45,142 bases of DNA. Source: a bacterium (GTDB lineage: Bacteria; BMS3Abin14). Location: assembly GCA_020350725.1 (NCBI GenBank), contig CP070719.1, positions 1,647,965 to 1,693,106 on the forward strand, written 5' to 3'. Shown piece by piece: positions 10,744-40,686 of this stretch. The notes below the pieces were generated by a model. That model was not told the origin of the DNA, did not search any database, and worked only from the letters and a program-made list of their open reading frames with translations. Position numbers and translations under genes: made by a program. The number at the start of each line of letters is the position of its first letter. Position 1 is the stretch's first letter.

Positions 10744-11099
10744 TCTTCCAGGAAACCCTCAGGGAAATCGTGGAACGCGCCGATGGCGTTCAGGGAGCGG
10801 TCATCATGGGGATGGACGGCATCGCCATCGGGGAGCACATTGTCGATCCTGCCTGCAGCATCCAGACCGTGGGGATCGAGTACGCCAGCGCCATCAAGAG
10901 CATTCAGAAGGCCGCGCACTCACTGGAGGCCGGGGACGTCCAGGAGGTGATCATCAACACGTCGAGCAGCGTGACCATCCTCCGGCTCATTACCCGCGAA
11001 TACTTTATCGCCCTATCCCTCCTGCCGGACGGCAATCACGGAAGGGCGAGATATCTCCTGAGACTGGCCGTACCCAGGCTGTCCGGAGAGTTCCTGTGA
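10740..11099 (+). CDS. roadblock/LC7 domain protein
   Basis: A single roadblock/LC7 domain of 119 residues: helix (FQETLREIVERADGVQG), strand (AVIMGMDGIAIG), the long helix (IEYASAIKSIQKAAHSL), then strands (VQEVIINTSSSVTILRLI, YFIALSLL) and a last helix. Relatives such as MglB act as partners or GTPase-activating proteins of small Ras-like GTPases in polarity and motility. No GTPase gene lies in this window. ATG 10740 overlaps the upstream TPR stop by four bases. The end overlaps the next gene as GTGA. The MglB-like role is inference; the fold assignment is good. Confidence 0.88.
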   Translation: MIFQETLREIVERADGVQGAVIMGMDGIAIGEHIVDPACSIQTVGIEYASAIKSIQKAAHSLEAGDVQEVIINTSSSVTILRLITREYFIALSLLPDGNHGRARYLLRLAVPRLSGEFL

Positions 11100-11425
11100 A
11101 CAAGGTTCTCGACGTCCAGAAGCCCAACCTGAGCCCCCCGGGCTGTCCGGATAGGGACGGCCACGGGTCCGTGGCCGTTGAGCTGGCCCACGGCACTCCC
11201 CGGGAGGATGGAAAGGACGCGGGTGTCGGGATCGACACCGCCCGGTCCTCCCGGGAGAGGGGGGTGGCAGCCACCATTATCATTCCCGCCGGCTATTCAC
11301 TCACCAACCTGGCCATAACGGACGCCCCGTGGGCAGTCGACCTGCCCGGCATTGAGGTCCCCGCGTCGAACATCCTCGCCCTTGAGGGGATCCGCGATAT
11401 GGTCAGGCCCGAATCGCCGGAATAG
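11096..11425 (+). CDS. degenerate AroQ-like protein lacking catalytic residues
   Basis: 109 residues that align along most of a type II 3-dehydroquinate dehydratase (normally about 145). KVLDVQKPNLSPPG matches the KILVLHGPNLNLLG opening. ATIIIPAGYSLTNLAITDA matches the IIINPGAYTHTSVALRDA core. AVDLPGIEVPASNILALEG matches the AVDLPVIEVHLSNIHAREE region. The catalytic residues are gone: the core Asn is Pro64, the THTS His is Leu69, the EVH His is Pro89, and the REPxxYG loop is not recognisable. The C-terminal 30 or so residues are missing. GTG 11096 has a good ribosome site (GGAGAG) and is coupled to the roadblock stop. It sits at the position before efp where related genomes keep aroQ. It is probably a pseudoenzyme or decaying gene and cannot supply dehydroquinase activity. 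Confidence 0.7.
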   Translation: MNKVLDVQKPNLSPPGCPDRDGHGSVAVELAHGTPREDGKDAGVGIDTARSSRERGVAATIIIPAGYSLTNLAITDAPWAVDLPGIEVPASNILALEGIRDMVRPESPE

Positions 11426-33793: not shown

Positions 33794-34261
33794 TTGGCCA
33801 TGAGACTCTCGACGAAAAGCCGTTATGGAGTGAGAGCGCTGTTCGACATCGCGTACCATTCAGTGGGACTTCCTACCCAGATCAAGGACATCTCGCGCCG
33901 GCAGCAGATCAGTCCCAGGTATCTCGAACAGATCTTTCAGAAGCTGAAGAAGGCTGGGTTGTTGGGGAGCAAAAGAGGACCGAGCGGGGGATACTTCCTT
34001 CTCAGGGAACCGTCTGAAATTACCCTCGGAGATATCATCAGAGCCACGGAGGGTCCGTTTGAACTGGTTTTCTGCGTCAGTGAGAACCCGCGCAAGATAT
34101 GTCCGCGCAAAGACGATTGCGTGGCCTCCGAGATGTGGACGGACATAAGCCGCAAGCTGGGCGATTTCTTCGATTCCATTTCCATCGCCCAGCTATGTGA
34201 GCAGGCACGTGAGGTGGGTGTCGAAAGGGAGTACAACCACCCGTACACCTACCACATCTAA
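33794..34261 (+). CDS. Rrf2/IscR-type regulator with cysteine triad
   Basis: 155 residues. The winged HTH begins MRLSTKSRYGVRALFDIAYH. The recognition region QISPRYLEQIFQKLKKAGLLGSKRGPSGGYFLLREP is the family signature. Three cysteines follow in CVSENPRKICPRKDDC (spacing 8 and 5), the pattern that holds a 2Fe-2S cluster in IscR-like sensors. TTG 33794 is nine bases after GGGGG; an ATG at 33800 gives the more usual N-terminus but has poor spacing. No isc genes follow; instead a LarE-like gene lies 49 bases downstream. Confidence 0.9.
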   Translation: MAMRLSTKSRYGVRALFDIAYHSVGLPTQIKDISRRQQISPRYLEQIFQKLKKAGLLGSKRGPSGGYFLLREPSEITLGDIIRATEGPFELVFCVSENPRKICPRKDDCVASEMWTDISRKLGDFFDSISIAQLCEQAREVGVEREYNHPYTYHI

Positions 34262-34310: not shown

Positions 34311-35162
34311 ATGACCAAGAGCAGCCAGTCAGCCAGCATCTCCAAGGGAGCTCCGGTTTCAAGTCTGAGCCGGTTGAGATCCATCCTCAATGAGATGGGG
34401 TCCGTCCTGATCGCCTTTTCAGGAGGAGTTGACAGCACCTTCCTGCTGATGTTCGCCACCGAGGTCCTCGGCCCGGGGGCGGTCTGGGCTGTGACCGTCG
34501 ACACCCCCCTCCTGCCGGAGGGCGAAGTATCGGAGGCCGTCCATCTGGCCCAGAAGCAGAGTATCAGGATCAGGACGGTGAAGATGGACCCTCTGGCGGT
34601 TCCTGAAGTGGCAGGCAATCAGCCCGATCGATGTTATGTCTGCAAGAAGATGATTTTCACCCGGCTGATGTCCATGGCGGAGGGGATGGGGATACCCTGG
34701 GTCCTTGAGGGCACGAATGCGGATGACACCGTAGGGTACCGGCCCGGGATCAGGGCCCTGGAGGAAATGGGCATCCGCAGCCCTCTCCGGGAGGCAGGTC
34801 TCACCAAGGAGGACATCAGGGCAGAGAGCCGCAGGATGGGACTTGCCACGTGGGACCGGCCCTCGAGCCCCTGTCTGGCGACCAGGTTCCCCTACGGTGA
34901 ACCGCTTGTCGCAGACCACCTCAAGCAGGTCGACAGGGGTGAACGGCTGCTCAGGGATCTGGGATTCGAGACGGTGAGGTTAAGAAAGCACGGAGATGTG
35001 GCAAGGATCGAGGTCCCGGCCGACCGCATCGGCGATCTCATGGCCGAGAAACAGCGGGTGGTCATTGTTTCATTCCTCAGAGATCTGGGGTTTTCGTACG
35101 TTACCGTCGATATCGAGGGATTTCGCTCCGGCAGCATGGATGAGAAGATCGACACCGGATGA
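34311..35162 (+). CDS. larE: LarE-type ATP-dependent sulfur transferase
   Basis: 283 residues. The PP-loop pyrophosphatase motif is SGGVDS (37-42). Further family markers are CYVCKKMIF (Cys108, Cys111), EGTNADD (133-139), SPLREAGLTKEDIR and the conserved RPSSPCLATRFPYG with Cys188. LarE makes the thio groups of the nickel-pincer cofactor of lactate racemase. The CxxC plus a third cysteine corresponds to the variant that uses a 4Fe-4S cluster rather than sacrificing its own cysteine. No larA, larB or larC is in the window, so the substrate may differ. ATG 34311 has AGGTGA just upstream. Confidence 0.88.
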   Translation: MTKSSQSASISKGAPVSSLSRLRSILNEMGSVLIAFSGGVDSTFLLMFATEVLGPGAVWAVTVDTPLLPEGEVSEAVHLAQKQSIRIRTVKMDPLAVPEVAGNQPDRCYVCKKMIFTRLMSMAEGMGIPWVLEGTNADDTVGYRPGIRALEEMGIRSPLREAGLTKEDIRAESRRMGLATWDRPSSPCLATRFPYGEPLVADHLKQVDRGERLLRDLGFETVRLRKHGDVARIEVPADRIGDLMAEKQRVVIVSFLRDLGFSYVTVDIEGFRSGSMDEKIDTG

Positions 35163-35220: not shown

Positions 35221-35619
35221 ATGAGAGAGATACTGGGCAGTCGTATCGGCAATCTGATCGTCTGGTACCTGGTAACGGCTTTTGCCGGCGTATTCACAGT
35301 TCCCGCTGTCGCCAAGGCCGCCTTCATCCCGAATGCCGGCAGGTACGTTGACGGGAACGCGGACGGCATCGATCAATTGAAGCAGGTGCTGGAAAACGAA
35401 CTTCTCCGCGGTAAACTCAGCGGACTGGGCCTTTCCCAAGAGGAGATAGCGGGACGCATCGATTCTCTCACCGCGCAGGAACGCCGGGCCGTCCTGGCCG
35501 ACCTGGACAGGATCCAGGCGGGAGGCGACGGTCTGGGAACCGTGCTCACTGTCGCCCTCATCGTTCTGGTCGTCGTCCTCATTCTCAAACTGCTCGATAA
35601 AGAAATCGTCATAAAGTGA
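35221..35619 (+). CDS. PA2779-family membrane protein
   Basis: 132 residues. The N-terminal hydrophobic segment is a signal peptide or anchor (about 9-33). The soluble part has LKQVLENELLRGKLSGLGLSQEEIAGRIDSLTAQER (a helical pair typical of PA2779). A GGDGLGTVLTVALIVLVVVLILKLL membrane helix (about 101-125) comes near the end. Function unknown; homologues are found next to PA2778-type peptidases, as here. AAAGGGAG about eight bases before ATG 35221 supports the start. It overlaps the next gene (GTGA). Confidence 0.85.
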   Translation: MREILGSRIGNLIVWYLVTAFAGVFTVPAVAKAAFIPNAGRYVDGNADGIDQLKQVLENELLRGKLSGLGLSQEEIAGRIDSLTAQERRAVLADLDRIQAGGDGLGTVLTVALIVLVVVLILKLLDKEIVIK

Positions 35620-36176
35620 GGACCTGGTCCCGACTCATCCCGGCGGCTGCATTCCTTCTCTCCCTGGCAGGGACCTCCTGCACTTTTCGTCTGACCGATA
35701 CGAGGTATTTCCCCGAACCGGCGGTCAGGCTTGCCGTGGAGTCCTACACTCAGGAACCGAACCGATGTGGCCCTTATGCCCTGGCTGCGGTCCTGAATTT
35801 TCTTAACTTCGGTTCAGACCCGGAAGATCTAGCCGAAAGGCTGTACATCCCCGAGATCGAGGGAACGCTCACCATGGATCTCTTTCTGGAGGCCGTCAGG
35901 GTGGGAGCGGACGCCGAGCAGATGAGGGGCTCGACCGAACGTCTCACGGGGGACCTGGAGAGGGGCCTGCCTGTGATCATCCTCCTCCGGTACGGCTCCC
36001 TTTTGCCGGGGGCGGGACATTTCGTCGTCATCACGGGGTACTCGCTCGAACCCCGGGGATTCTTCCTCGAATGGGGCGACGGAAAGGCGTCGTGGGTCGC
36101 CGGAGACGATCTGGACAGGATGTGGGCCCGTTCAGATCACTGGATGCTGTCTTTGGCCGGAGGTCTGGGATCGTGA
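35616..36176 (+). CDS. PA2778-family C39-like cysteine peptidase
   Basis: 186 residues. A signal sequence ends in a weak lipobox at Cys22 (LAGTSC). The papain-like core shows the catalytic Cys51 in QEPNRCGPYALAAVLNF and the His in GAGHFVVITGYSLEP (near 134), with a following Asp-rich stretch (EWGDGKASW). The DLDRMWARSDHWML tail is characteristic. It would act in the periplasm. In the family the peptidase domain is often fused to C-terminal TPRs; here the TPR part is the separate next gene. The GTG start is coupled to the PA2779-like stop. Confidence 0.85.
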   Translation: MRTWSRLIPAAAFLLSLAGTSCTFRLTDTRYFPEPAVRLAVESYTQEPNRCGPYALAAVLNFLNFGSDPEDLAERLYIPEIEGTLTMDLFLEAVRVGADAEQMRGSTERLTGDLERGLPVIILLRYGSLLPGAGHFVVITGYSLEPRGFFLEWGDGKASWVAGDDLDRMWARSDHWMLSLAGGLGS

Positions 36177-36754
36177 AGGATATCTGGAGGATGGTCGCCC
36201 TTGCCGCCCTCCTCTCCGCGGTGGGATGCATCACTGTGGATCAGCAACGGGTCACGGGCATGCCCTATCCTGACCTTTTGAAGCTGGCCTCCATCTACAT
36301 TCAGGAAGGCAACAACCCAAACGCGGAAATGGTCCTGGAGGATGCCGTGAAATCGGAGCCGGACCGCCCCGAGGCCTACGCGATGCTGGGGGATATCTTC
36401 TACAGCAAGGATGACCTGCCGGAAGCCGCCCTGTACTACCTGAAGGCCCTGGAGAGGAACGGCGAGGATACCGTCGTCCTGAACAATCTGGCCTGGGTGG
36501 AGATGGGACAGGAGAATTACAGTTCGGCATTGGCTTACATCGAACGCGCCGTGGAGATGGCTCCCCAGCCCCTTTATCCCTACCTTGACACCCGCGCCCG
36601 CATCTTCAGGGCCATGGGGGACTTGGACAAGGCTCTTTCCAGCGCCAGGATCGCACTCTCCCTGACCCCTGAACATGAGGTCGAGATGCGGGCCGACCTG
36701 ATCAAACTGATTCGATCCATTGAGAACGGGGTCGAAGAGGATGTCCTTTATTAG
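36173..36754 (+). CDS. TPR lipoprotein
   Basis: 193 residues. The N-terminal signal ends in a lipobox (LLSAVGC, Cys19). Then four to five TPR units follow, for example PDLLKLASIYIQEGNNPNAEMVLEDAVKSEPD, AYAMLGDIFYSKDDLPEAALYYLKALERNGED and VLNNLAWVEMGQENYSSALAYIERAVEMAP. GTG 36173 overlaps the peptidase stop and has GGAGG eight bases upstream. It probably supplies the TPR half of a split PA2778-type protein. Confidence 0.85.
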   Translation: MKDIWRMVALAALLSAVGCITVDQQRVTGMPYPDLLKLASIYIQEGNNPNAEMVLEDAVKSEPDRPEAYAMLGDIFYSKDDLPEAALYYLKALERNGEDTVVLNNLAWVEMGQENYSSALAYIERAVEMAPQPLYPYLDTRARIFRAMGDLDKALSSARIALSLTPEHEVEMRADLIKLIRSIENGVEEDVLY

Positions 36755-36767
36755 GGGACCCAGCGAG

Positions 36768-37934
36768 ATGTCCATAGGTGATGATCTGAGGATCTTCATG
36801 AACCGGCTCACAGTGGACTCCCCCGATCGGTTCATCGGGAGCAGGGGGCACCGGAGGGCCTTCTCCTATATCAAAGGCCTGGTGAGGTCATGGGGATACT
36901 GGTCCCAGGTCCACCCGTTCTCGGTCGATCTCACAGTCCCCCTGCGCTGGTCTCTTCAGATAGACCTCGGAAAGGGTTTTGAAGAGGTCGAATCCCTCCC
37001 CGGTATCGGTTCGCCTTCCACAGACCTCCTGGAAGGGGACATCCGGCCGGTGGGCTATGCCAGGGAGGAAGATTACTCCTCGCTTGACAGCGTGGAGGGT
37101 TCGGTTCACCTGGCCAAACTCTGGAAAAGCCATGAGACAGTCAAGATCCAGGAGGCCGCCCGTCAGGGAGCTCGGGCTCTTATCTGGTACAACGAGTACT
37201 TCGATGAGATCTATTCCGGCGCCTGCGATTACAGTCTGGCCCCCGTCCCCGGATTCTCCATCAGGAAATCGGTGGCCGAAAGGATCACGGAGGCGGGTGG
37301 TGCGAGAGTGCGGATAAGACTCAAATCGAAGAGAAGGAGAATTCGCTGTCGGAACATTGAAGCGGGAACAGGTCCGACGGACGGGCGGTACGCCCTCCTG
37401 ACGGCTCACTACGACTCCAGGCCCAGAACCCCGGGGGCCAGCGACGATGCGTCCGGCATTGCCGTCATGCTGGCCTTCATGAAAGGGGGCTATGAAAAAG
37501 ATCTGTCCTTTCCCATGAGGTACCTCTTCGCCGATTGTGAGGAGGTGGGATGCGTTGGGGCCGAGCACCACGCCGCAGAGCTCTATCGGACAAACCGCCT
37601 CAAGGACATTTCATCGGTGGTCAACCTGGATGCCGTCGGATGGCCGAATCTCTGCGTCATCACCCGGGACAGGGAAGCTGTCATGGACGAGGGACTCTCA
37701 CACCTGGCGTGTGATACTCTAAGCGACATGGGCTATCAGGCCGAGAGGGTCAGATCCAAGACGGGGAAAAGCAACCACACCCCCTTCGCCATGCGGGGTA
37801 TCCCCTGTCTGTGGTTGTCCGATTACCCGAACTACATCAGGCACTCGGCCATCGACAATGCCTTCAATATCGACTATCCGACAATGACAATGGTGACGGA
37901 GGCATTGAAGAACTTCTACGGAAAGCTAGATTGA
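36768..37934 (+). CDS. M28-family zinc aminopeptidase-like protein
   Basis: 388 residues, no signal peptide. An N-terminal cap (about 1-200) includes a PA-type inserted domain (VHLAKLWKSHETVKIQEAARQGARALIWYN). The M28 catalytic domain follows. The zinc ligands and catalytic residues are visible in TAHYDSRPRTPGASDDASG, the Glu pair of FADCEEVGCVGAEH, the Asp of NLDAVGW and the His of IRHSAIDNAFN. ATG 36768 is chosen from the AGGGGA nine bases upstream; an in-frame ATG at 36741 overlaps the previous gene. It is the fourth gene of the tight unit starting at 35221. Confidence 0.85.
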   Translation: MSIGDDLRIFMNRLTVDSPDRFIGSRGHRRAFSYIKGLVRSWGYWSQVHPFSVDLTVPLRWSLQIDLGKGFEEVESLPGIGSPSTDLLEGDIRPVGYAREEDYSSLDSVEGSVHLAKLWKSHETVKIQEAARQGARALIWYNEYFDEIYSGACDYSLAPVPGFSIRKSVAERITEAGGARVRIRLKSKRRRIRCRNIEAGTGPTDGRYALLTAHYDSRPRTPGASDDASGIAVMLAFMKGGYEKDLSFPMRYLFADCEEVGCVGAEHHAAELYRTNRLKDISSVVNLDAVGWPNLCVITRDREAVMDEGLSHLACDTLSDMGYQAERVRSKTGKSNHTPFAMRGIPCLWLSDYPNYIRHSAIDNAFNIDYPTMTMVTEALKNFYGKLD

Positions 37935-37935
37935 G

Positions 37936-39546
37936 ATGGTATCTTTCGGCCCCTTAGCCGTTCAGAGGTTCGTTCTCAGGCTCTTCTTTACCTGTGGTGT
38001 TCTGCTCTGGAGCTATTTCAGCGGCAACCTGAGCGCGCTGATCGTCTCCATGGTTTTCGTCATCTATGCGATGGCGGTCCTCATATACAGTTATCGGCGC
38101 GAACAGACCGGTGACGAAGCGGTCCCCTTCATTTTTGCCGACATAGCCTTTGTCGGGCTGCTCATCGGGATGTCCGGTGGGTGGACGAGCGAATTTCACC
38201 TGCTCCTCTATTTTATCGTGGCCCTGAGAGCCCCCTATCGATCCTGGGCGTTGACCCTGGCCATCCCGGCGGCGTGCTCCCTTGCCTACGCCATCCCCGC
38301 CTGGAAATCGATCGTGGAAATTGAGAGTCTTTTCTGGTTCACGTTTCTGACCCGGATCAGTCTCCTTTGGTTCCTTGCTCCGCTGCTCAGGATCATCGGC
38401 TTGAGATCCCGGGAGGAACGGGAACGGGCAGAGCGCCTGACCCTGGAGCTCTCATCGACCCACGACGAGGTGCGAAGGTATACAGCCGCTCTGGAGAAAG
38501 CCAACGCACAGGGTGAAAAGCGGCTGATGGAAATAACCCTCCTCCATCAGTTCGTCACGGAAGTGAGAGCGGCGAAGGGATACGAGGATGTGTACCAGAC
38601 GGTCCTGAAGTATGTCAGCCAGGCAAGCGAGGCGCCGTGGATCTTCCTCGCCCATTCCAGAGAAAGGGAAAGTGGAACTTCCGAGATAAGGTCCTTCGGA
38701 GATCCTCCCGAGGAGATATCCAGGCGGGCGACCGAGGCCATCTCGGTCCCGAGGAGCGACGGCCAGGAGCCGGCCGAGGAGTGGACATTCCCGGGTCAGG
38801 GGACATGTGCCGCCTACTTCCTCGACTGCTGCCAGGGGCATTTGAAGACCGTAACCCTTCTGTTGATCTTTCCTCCCAATACCGTGCGGATGGAGGAGGA
38901 TCAGGTTGAGGTGTTGAATGCCTTTCTGGAAAGCCTGGAAATGGAACTCGAGCTCCTCAGGCTCCAGAGCGATCTCAGGCATTCCAACGAGAGGCTGAGG
39001 GTGAGCAACCATCATCTGATGAGGCTTCACGAACTCCAGAACGAACTGAGCCGGGCGTTTCTGGCGAGCGGTGAGATGGACGGGGTTGTTCAGGCTGCCC
39101 AGGAGATCATGGCCAAGGAGCTCTTCGAACTGGACCGCCTGAATCTTTTCCTGCCGAACTGGGACAAGAAAATGCTCCAGTGCCGCACCTCGGTCGGAAT
39201 AGAGGGTGTCCAGGCCGAGGAGGTCTCCGTTCCCATGGATGAAAGGGGAGGGGCGATCTCAAAGGCCTTCCGGGAGGGCAAGACGATCTTCTTCGACGGC
39301 GGAACCGCTGTACCCCCCGAACTGAGGGTGGCGGATCCTTTCTCCCGGATGCAGGCGATCCGATCCAGGATCTTCGTCATCGTTCCTCTCCTCGACCACC
39401 GCGGGGAAGTCCTGGGTGTGATCGGTGCAGACAGAAAACGCACTCACCGACCCATCCCCCAGGAGACTATCGCCATGCTCGAATTTTTCGCCAGGCATCT
39501 GGCCATGGTCCTGTCCCTTCAGGAAAAGAGGGATGACAGGCCATGA
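37936..39546 (+). CDS. membrane GAF sensor lacking an output domain
   Basis: 536 residues. About six membrane helices lie within residues 10-155, ending in LTRISLLWFLAPLLRIIGL. A coiled coil (about 158-205), a first GAF domain (about 205-345), a second coiled coil (about 340-375) and a second GAF domain (about 380-530: AQEIMAKELFELDRLNLFLP, SVPMDERGGAISKAFREGKTI, VIVPLLDHRGEVLGVIGADR) follow. The protein stops at LSLQEKRDDRP with no HisKA, ATPase, GGDEF or PP2C domain. It starts one base after the M28 stop. It is a probable receptor whose output is supplied by a partner, or a truncated kinase. Confidence 0.85.
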   Translation: MVSFGPLAVQRFVLRLFFTCGVLLWSYFSGNLSALIVSMVFVIYAMAVLIYSYRREQTGDEAVPFIFADIAFVGLLIGMSGGWTSEFHLLLYFIVALRAPYRSWALTLAIPAACSLAYAIPAWKSIVEIESLFWFTFLTRISLLWFLAPLLRIIGLRSREERERAERLTLELSSTHDEVRRYTAALEKANAQGEKRLMEITLLHQFVTEVRAAKGYEDVYQTVLKYVSQASEAPWIFLAHSRERESGTSEIRSFGDPPEEISRRATEAISVPRSDGQEPAEEWTFPGQGTCAAYFLDCCQGHLKTVTLLLIFPPNTVRMEEDQVEVLNAFLESLEMELELLRLQSDLRHSNERLRVSNHHLMRLHELQNELSRAFLASGEMDGVVQAAQEIMAKELFELDRLNLFLPNWDKKMLQCRTSVGIEGVQAEEVSVPMDERGGAISKAFREGKTIFFDGGTAVPPELRVADPFSRMQAIRSRIFVIVPLLDHRGEVLGVIGADRKRTHRPIPQETIAMLEFFARHLAMVLSLQEKRDDRP

Positions 39547-39568
39547 TCAGGGTGATGGGAATAGAGAT

Positions 39569-39624
39569 TAGACATTGGACATTGGAGATCAGAGAATAGA
39601 CATTGGACATTGGAGATCAGAGAT
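39569..39624. repeat. 28-bp tandem repeat, two copies
   Basis: Units 39569-39596 and 39597-39624 start TAGACATTGGACATTGGAGA and differ at one position. The same words appear inverted near 33660-33700 and as variants near 25552-25582. Confidence 0.8.
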
Positions 39625-39675
39625 TGGAAATTAGACACTCTATACGTGTTGATATGACTGAATCGAGATCCGTTC

Positions 39676-40686
39676 ATGACCGGTAAAGTCAAAGACAGCG
39701 GCGCCCCTGACGAGATCTACCTCCTCAAGGAGATCACGGAACGGAGGACGAAGCAGGGAAAGCCCTATCTTGCAGTTGTCCTGGGGACACCCGATGGTGA
39801 TGTGGAAGGTCGCATCTGGGACATGGAACTGAAGTCGCTGCCCGCCATGGTTCCAGGTGATCCTGTTCTGGCCAGCGGAAAAGCAGGCGTGTACCAGGAC
39901 AGGAAACAGCTGGTCATTGACCGTATTGAGAAGGTCAGCCGGGAGGTGGACCCCCGACAGCTTTATCCCTCCTCGGAGATTTCAGAGGGTCAACTCCGTA
40001 AGGATTACGCCGGCCTTGTCTCCACCCTGAGAGAGCCCGCCCTGATACAGCTGTTCAACGTTTTGGACCAGGACGCCCCCTTCATGGATGCCTTCTTCAC
40101 CTCACCGGCCGCTGTCAGCATGCACCATGCGCGTATTGGGGGACTTGCCGAGCACAGCCTGGCCGTCTGCCGCCTTGCCGTGGCTCTGGGGACTCTATAC
40201 CCATGGTTGAGGACGGACCTTTTGGTTGCCGGAGGACTCCTCCATGATGTGGGGAAGACGAAGGAGTATGAGGTCTCAGGGGATTTCCGCTATTCGAGGG
40301 AGGGCAAGCTGATCGGGCATATCACACTGGGCGTCGGGATGGTCAGTGGATGGATCGATCACGTGGCCGGATTTCCCGAGGATCTGGCTCTCCAGATCCT
40401 CCACATCGTTCTCAGTCACCATGGGCAGTTGGAGCACGGTTCGCCCCGGACTCCGGCGACACCGGAGGCCCTTGTGATCCATTATGCAGACGACCTTGAC
40501 GCGAAGCTCGACATGCTGCGGTCGGCCTCCGCCGATCCGGACGCTGCCGAAGCCTTTGTCAGGGGACTGAGGCGGACTTTCCTTTTCGCCCCGGAGGGGC
40601 CCGGGGAGGAGGACAGCGAAGCCGTCAGGACGGAAGACCGGGGCCCGGACACCTCAGGGAGCAGTGACCAGGGGGAGCTTTTTTGA
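39676..40686 (+). CDS. YhaM-like OB-fold/HD-domain nuclease
   Basis: 336 residues. An N-terminal OB-fold (about 10-90: LLKEITERRTKQGKPYLAVVLGTPDGDVEGRIWD) is followed by an HD domain. Metal-binding and active-site motifs are MHHARIGGLAEHSLAV (about 150-165), GGLLHDVGKTKEY, VLSHHGQLEHGS and IHYADDLDAKLDM. This is the arrangement of YhaM 3'-5' exoribonucleases. The C-terminal tail is acidic and variable. It is preceded by the tandem word repeat. Confidence 0.88.
   Translation: MTGKVKDSGAPDEIYLLKEITERRTKQGKPYLAVVLGTPDGDVEGRIWDMELKSLPAMVPGDPVLASGKAGVYQDRKQLVIDRIEKVSREVDPRQLYPSSEISEGQLRKDYAGLVSTLREPALIQLFNVLDQDAPFMDAFFTSPAAVSMHHARIGGLAEHSLAVCRLAVALGTLYPWLRTDLLVAGGLLHDVGKTKEYEVSGDFRYSREGKLIGHITLGVGMVSGWIDHVAGFPEDLALQILHIVLSHHGQLEHGSPRTPATPEALVIHYADDLDAKLDMLRSASADPDAAEAFVRGLRRTFLFAPEGPGEEDSEAVRTEDRGPDTSGSSDQGELF

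Follow-up and report, generated by a model that had tools for sequence, protein, structure and literature searches.

A split PA2779/PA2778 cassette beside M28 peptidase and GAF receptor genes in a conserved gene string

The closest described relatives of the genes studied here are the paired families PA2779 and PA2778 (NCBI models NF033919 and NF033920), in which a small membrane protein is followed by a C39 peptidase and a TPR domain. Our locus holds the same families in the same order, but C39 and TPR come from two genes (as also seen in a second phylum), the scores against NF033920 fall below its cut-off, and the flanking genes are phylum-specific. The literature on PA2778 and PA2779 yielded incidental mentions, with no function described in any paper that we found. 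Cleavage at double glycines is a known trait of C39 peptidases. Those of bacteriocin-exporting ABC transporters share the family and the double-glycine cleavage motif with our locus, but here the peptidase is a predicted exported lipoprotein with no transporter, and the motif lies near the C-terminus, before a transmembrane segment, instead of at the end of a leader. The GlyGly-CTERM/rhombosortase system of Vibrio (PMC3237569, PMC6219818) is similar on paper by its glycine motif, membrane helix, charged tail, and many substrates per enzyme. However, its protease is a rhomboid and not a C39 lipoprotein, which makes this a functional analogy only, and GlyGly-CTERM is a tail on diverse enzymes, whereas PA2779 is a small dedicated protein with a putative cleavage site.

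Gene order and spacing at the locus

The window (i.e., the whole stretch of 45,142 nucleotides that was analysed) contains five confirmed open reading frames on the same (+) strand at 35221 to 39546, encoding PA2779, C39, TPR, M28, and GAF proteins in this order. They are listed here with their nearest neighbours:

33794..34261, + strand: Rrf2-family regulator, upstream neighbour (PF02082; conserved synteny)
34317..35162, + strand: LarE, upstream neighbour (TIGR00268, 315 bits; conserved synteny; start codon picked by homology)
35221..35619, + strand: PA2779-family (DUF6627) small membrane protein, 132 aa (NF033919, PF20332)
35616..36176, + strand: C39 cysteine peptidase, 186 aa, predicted lipoprotein (PF13529/PF03412; NF033920 positions 5-143)
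36173..36754, + strand: TPR lipoprotein, 193 aa (TPR models; NF033920 positions 160-255)
36741..37934, + strand: M28 aminopeptidase, 397 aa, YwaD/2ek8-like (PF04389, 2ek8_A profile)
37936..39546, + strand: membrane GAF receptor, 536 aa (PF01590, AlphaFold model, Foldseek)
39676..40686, + strand: YhaM-like HD/OB exoribonuclease, downstream neighbour (NF010007, 167 bits, below the cut-off of 460; conserved synteny)

Matches to Pfam and NCBIfam models (DUF6627/PA2779, C39, TPR, M28, and GAF) agree with the families that an earlier note on this DNA had given to the five genes. The note had also stressed their tight spacing, and the junctions from gene 1 to gene 5 (-4, -4, -14, and +1 bases) are indeed as claimed. 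Such tightness is nevertheless ordinary here: by a hand-made gene list, 16 of the 33 same-strand pairs in the window have junctions of 13 bases or less. Nor are the overlaps conserved in relatives, where the orthologous TPR-M28 and M28-GAF junctions are widened to around 140-190 bases. The limits of a five-gene operon are arbitrary because Rrf2 and LarE come upstream at gaps of 55-58 bases and YhaM-IspD-IspF-CysS continue downstream in the same direction; this order is conserved throughout the window's phylum. LarE is possibly part of the same transcript.

A tandem heptamer-based repeat with the 28-base unit AGAGATTAGACATTGGACATTGGAGATC occupies positions 39562-39637 of the window, between the GAF and YhaM genes, and around 45 similar matches to this unit are found across the genome. 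Other heptamer repeats (TTTTGGA, CTCTGGA, and CAGGAGT) are located at 21.9-22.1 kb, 27.7 kb, and 32.3-32.8 kb. They are reminiscent of cyanobacterial STRR sequences.

The M28 and GAF genes and the question of a joint module

The M28 protein (PF04389, 101 bits) is similar over nearly its full length to YwaD/2ek8 aminopeptidases, which are M28 enzymes with a PA domain (2ek8_A profile, E 1e-27 over residues 21-351, including the PA-domain insert), and it shares all of their metal residues. Its metal ligands and catalytic glutamate are complete and invariant (H223, D235, E267, E268, D297, and H368; 9/9). Unlike YwaD/2ek8, it is not predicted to be secreted: hydropathy and start position revealed no signal peptide in the window or in eight relatives with a visible start. 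Because of this lack, the enzyme is probably cytoplasmic and not located in the envelope, and as a YwaD-type aminopeptidase it would trim peptides there. A comparison with phage families gave only a generic peptidase match, for this protein. Outside the phylum, the best profile matches (G315 and G202) stand in unrelated contexts and were rejected as orthologues.

The GAF protein combines around six predicted membrane helices with a long signalling helix and tandem GAF domains, the first of them degenerate (PF01590, AlphaFold model). Foldseek matched the model to 3oov_A and to the tandem-GAF proteins PDE2A and CyaB2, with which it shares the tandem GAF architecture in its predicted fold, but it differs from all of them by its six-helix membrane N-terminus and the lack of an output domain. 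The length is the same in nine orthologues, and all nine end after the second GAF domain with no output domain (kinase, GGDEF, or HD). Such a receptor would have to signal through a partner protein. The best match outside the phylum (G158) covers only the second GAF domain and was dismissed as a different receptor. Two assembly irregularities concern the GAF gene: the G001 assembly breaks inside it, and at around 11050-11150 of locus L048 a run of N connects it with an unrelated, oppositely oriented gene, which looks like a scaffolding join in CP070682.

The earlier note had looked to Desulfobacterota for comparison and had suggested that the genes may act together as one periplasmic module for peptide processing and sensing. 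The window genome is not evidently a member of Desulfobacterota, and a search across its own phylum found only 12 species, all of one family. In every relative having all five genes, they are neighbours in conserved order, as had been anticipated. The M28 orthologue is present in 10 of the 12 species, and the other two are without the locus; these (G008 and G010) were rejected as counterexamples since both also lack YhaM, so that incomplete assemblies probably explain the missing locus. Among the genomes searched, orthologues of M28 and GAF are confined to this phylum, in 10/10 genomes having the locus, and in the loci examined from outside it they were never found beside a PA2779-C39 cassette.

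As far as the contigs reach, members of the phylum share one gene order from GroEL to RlmB, except that PA2779-C39 is lacking in three genomes (G003, G009, and G007; 98-100% complete), where both families are absent genome-wide. Every genome in which the locus is contiguous has TPR, M28, and GAF side by side, and this includes the clade without PA2779-C39. A tree of neighbouring genes places these three genomes together with G005 in one clade at 98% support, so that a single loss or gain of PA2779-C39 explains the pattern.

One integrated module of all five genes would account for their overlaps on the same strand and for their conserved order, but these observations speak against it: the M28 enzyme has no signal peptide, TPR-M28-GAF stays in place where PA2779 and C39 are gone, M28 and GAF do not accompany the cassette in loci examined from other phyla, and overlaps are common in the window and not kept in relatives. 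We therefore regard it as very improbable. That TPR, M28, and GAF are kept together in phylum genomes with the locus permits a functional link of genes 3 to 5, and these could form a phylum-specific unit beside which PA2779-C39 was gained or lost as an accessory. Their adjacency in all contiguous loci, also in the well-supported clade lacking PA2779-C39, points in this direction, but the entire string from GroEL to RlmB is retained in these genomes, which makes adjacency alone a weak argument, and a direct partnership of a TPR lipoprotein with a probably cytoplasmic M28 enzyme is hard to see; we consider such a unit unlikely. The five genes are thus probably not one new system, and their appearance as a module is mostly a neighbourhood effect, with little support for a joint one. 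The M28 and GAF genes would be vertically inherited neighbours limited to the window's phylum, whose adjacency may reflect the long conserved co-directional string Rrf2-LarE-...-YhaM-IspD-IspF-CysS and not a joint pathway.

A split form of the PA2779/PA2778 pair

NF033920, the NCBI model of PA2778, comprises a C39 and a TPR domain over 255 positions and has a cut-off of 150 bits. Gene 2 covers positions 5-143 (86.9 bits) and gene 3 positions 160-255 (36.9 bits), both below the cut-off. For gene 2, this is as expected of a split gene because the TPR half lies in the next gene; the match of gene 3, taken alone, could be generic TPR similarity. Judged from these alignments, the N-terminal half of PA2778 is represented by the C39 gene, and the TPR gene is most likely its detached second half instead of an extra element. 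Of 40 loci from a second phylum (that of genome G271, at a guess Nitrospirota), most have PA2779, C39, and TPR as three separate genes side by side, and C39-TPR is a single open reading frame in several other lineages. On an annotated Azoarcus plasmid, the pair appears under the names PA2779 and PA2778 among unrelated neighbours.

In the C39 peptidase, catalytic Cys51 and His135 are kept in 39/39 homologues and the oxyanion Gln46 in 34/39, and the third catalytic residue is Asp155 in the window protein and its relatives, a position not conserved across homologues. The C39 N termini of relatives are lipobox-like, and a PDB sequence search with the C39 protein gave no match. The TPR protein has the lipobox LSAVGC, with an invariant Cys19.

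Gene 1 belongs to the PA2779 family with 62.8 bits against NF033919 (curated cut-off 40) and 34.2 bits against PF20332. The protein is laid out as a cleavable signal peptide, an exported helical domain of around 65 residues, a G101-G102-D103 loop, a C-terminal transmembrane segment (105-126), and a short charged tail. A low-confidence model (pLDDT 62) predicts helices at 47-68, 73-82, and 85-99, so that the G-G-D loop falls between the last of these and the transmembrane segment. In an alignment of 67 homologues, Ala33 at the expected signal-peptidase site is invariant (67/67), G101 is Gly in 62/67 and Ala in the others, G102 is Gly in 57/67, and D103 is Asp in 54/67, which makes the membrane-side glycine loop one of the best-conserved stretches. 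By family membership and order, genes 1 to 3 are the widespread, functionally unstudied envelope protease cassette PA2779/PA2778 in split form.

PA2779 as a candidate substrate of the C39 peptidase

PA2779 was found in 18 of 337 diverse genomes, and 18/18 of these also encode a PA2778-like C39 protein (hypergeometric p ~1e-25, with relatedness ignored), adjacent to it in nearly all cases; in G096 the pair is split over contig ends. Together with the joint absence from three relatives, this confirms that the two families travel together. C39-like matches without PA2779 were seen in G124, G261, G064, and G239 and, more weakly, in G320. In genus g329, no locus examined links PA2779 to C39, yet both are present in 8/8 of its genomes; the genus was rejected as a case of PA2779 without C39, which is found elsewhere in the genome. 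In these g329 loci, PA2779 adjoins a TPR gene (L225 and L229) or lies at a contig end (L219), and the loop reads AGD instead of GGD. The class of G148, looked at for more PA2779, yielded only one genome.

Where PA2779 is present in several copies and C39 has a match (n = 20), a single C39 is present for at least two PA2779 copies in 19/20 genomes, the exception being G366 with two C39 for five PA2779 copies. The range otherwise is 2-5 copies per C39, with the counts of G357, G367, and G376 including weak extra matches below the family cut-off. One multi-copy but incomplete genome (G427) gave no C39 match. Three genomes related to that of the window also carry a second PA2779 copy (L115:6179-6640, L116:7098-7499, and L117:441-854), with the glycine motif kept and no C39 adjoining, and at L198:2648-3960 three tandem PA2779 genes precede one C39 and one TPR gene.

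Tight co-occurrence, several PA2779 copies per C39, and the Gly-Gly-Asp loop before the membrane anchor together suggest that PA2779 is a substrate of the C39 peptidase. Given the known preference of C39 enzymes and the position of G101-G102, we infer that cleavage would take place in this loop. Our confidence in this site is moderate because the motif is not strict, with variants (for example AG, GA, GK, and GQ) adjoining intact C39 genes. The variable position of Asp155 across C39 homologues and the weakness of the PA2779 model also count against the substrate reading. In this reading, PA2779 would be exported and trimmed by signal peptidase behind Ala33, and its C-terminal helix would keep it anchored in the inner membrane. 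Assisted by the TPR lipoprotein, which would act as a partner or as a substrate receptor, the C39 lipoprotein would then cleave PA2779 in the G-G-D loop close to the outer surface of this membrane and so release a small helical domain into the periplasm.

PA2779 might instead be a membrane anchor, activator, or inhibitor of C39. Any obligate partner would give the same co-occurrence and joint absence, and the exceptions to the Gly-Gly motif fit this role as well, but 2-5 copies per peptidase, some of them unlinked, look more like substrates, and the membrane-side glycine loop is among the best-conserved segments of the protein. We find this role rather unlikely. A split PA2779/PA2778 cassette, in which C39 cuts PA2779, next to separate, vertically inherited M28 and GAF neighbours is the account of the locus as a whole that we favour, with some reservation. 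More tentatively, and by analogy, PA2779/PA2778 may be a widespread periplasmic release system in which a C39 lipoprotein and its TPR partner cut small PA2779 proteins at a membrane-side glycine loop, with several substrates for each protease.

For two families that so far had a name but no function, there is now a concrete substrate hypothesis and, since PA2778/PA2779 occurs in genetically tractable Pseudomonas, the idea is directly testable.
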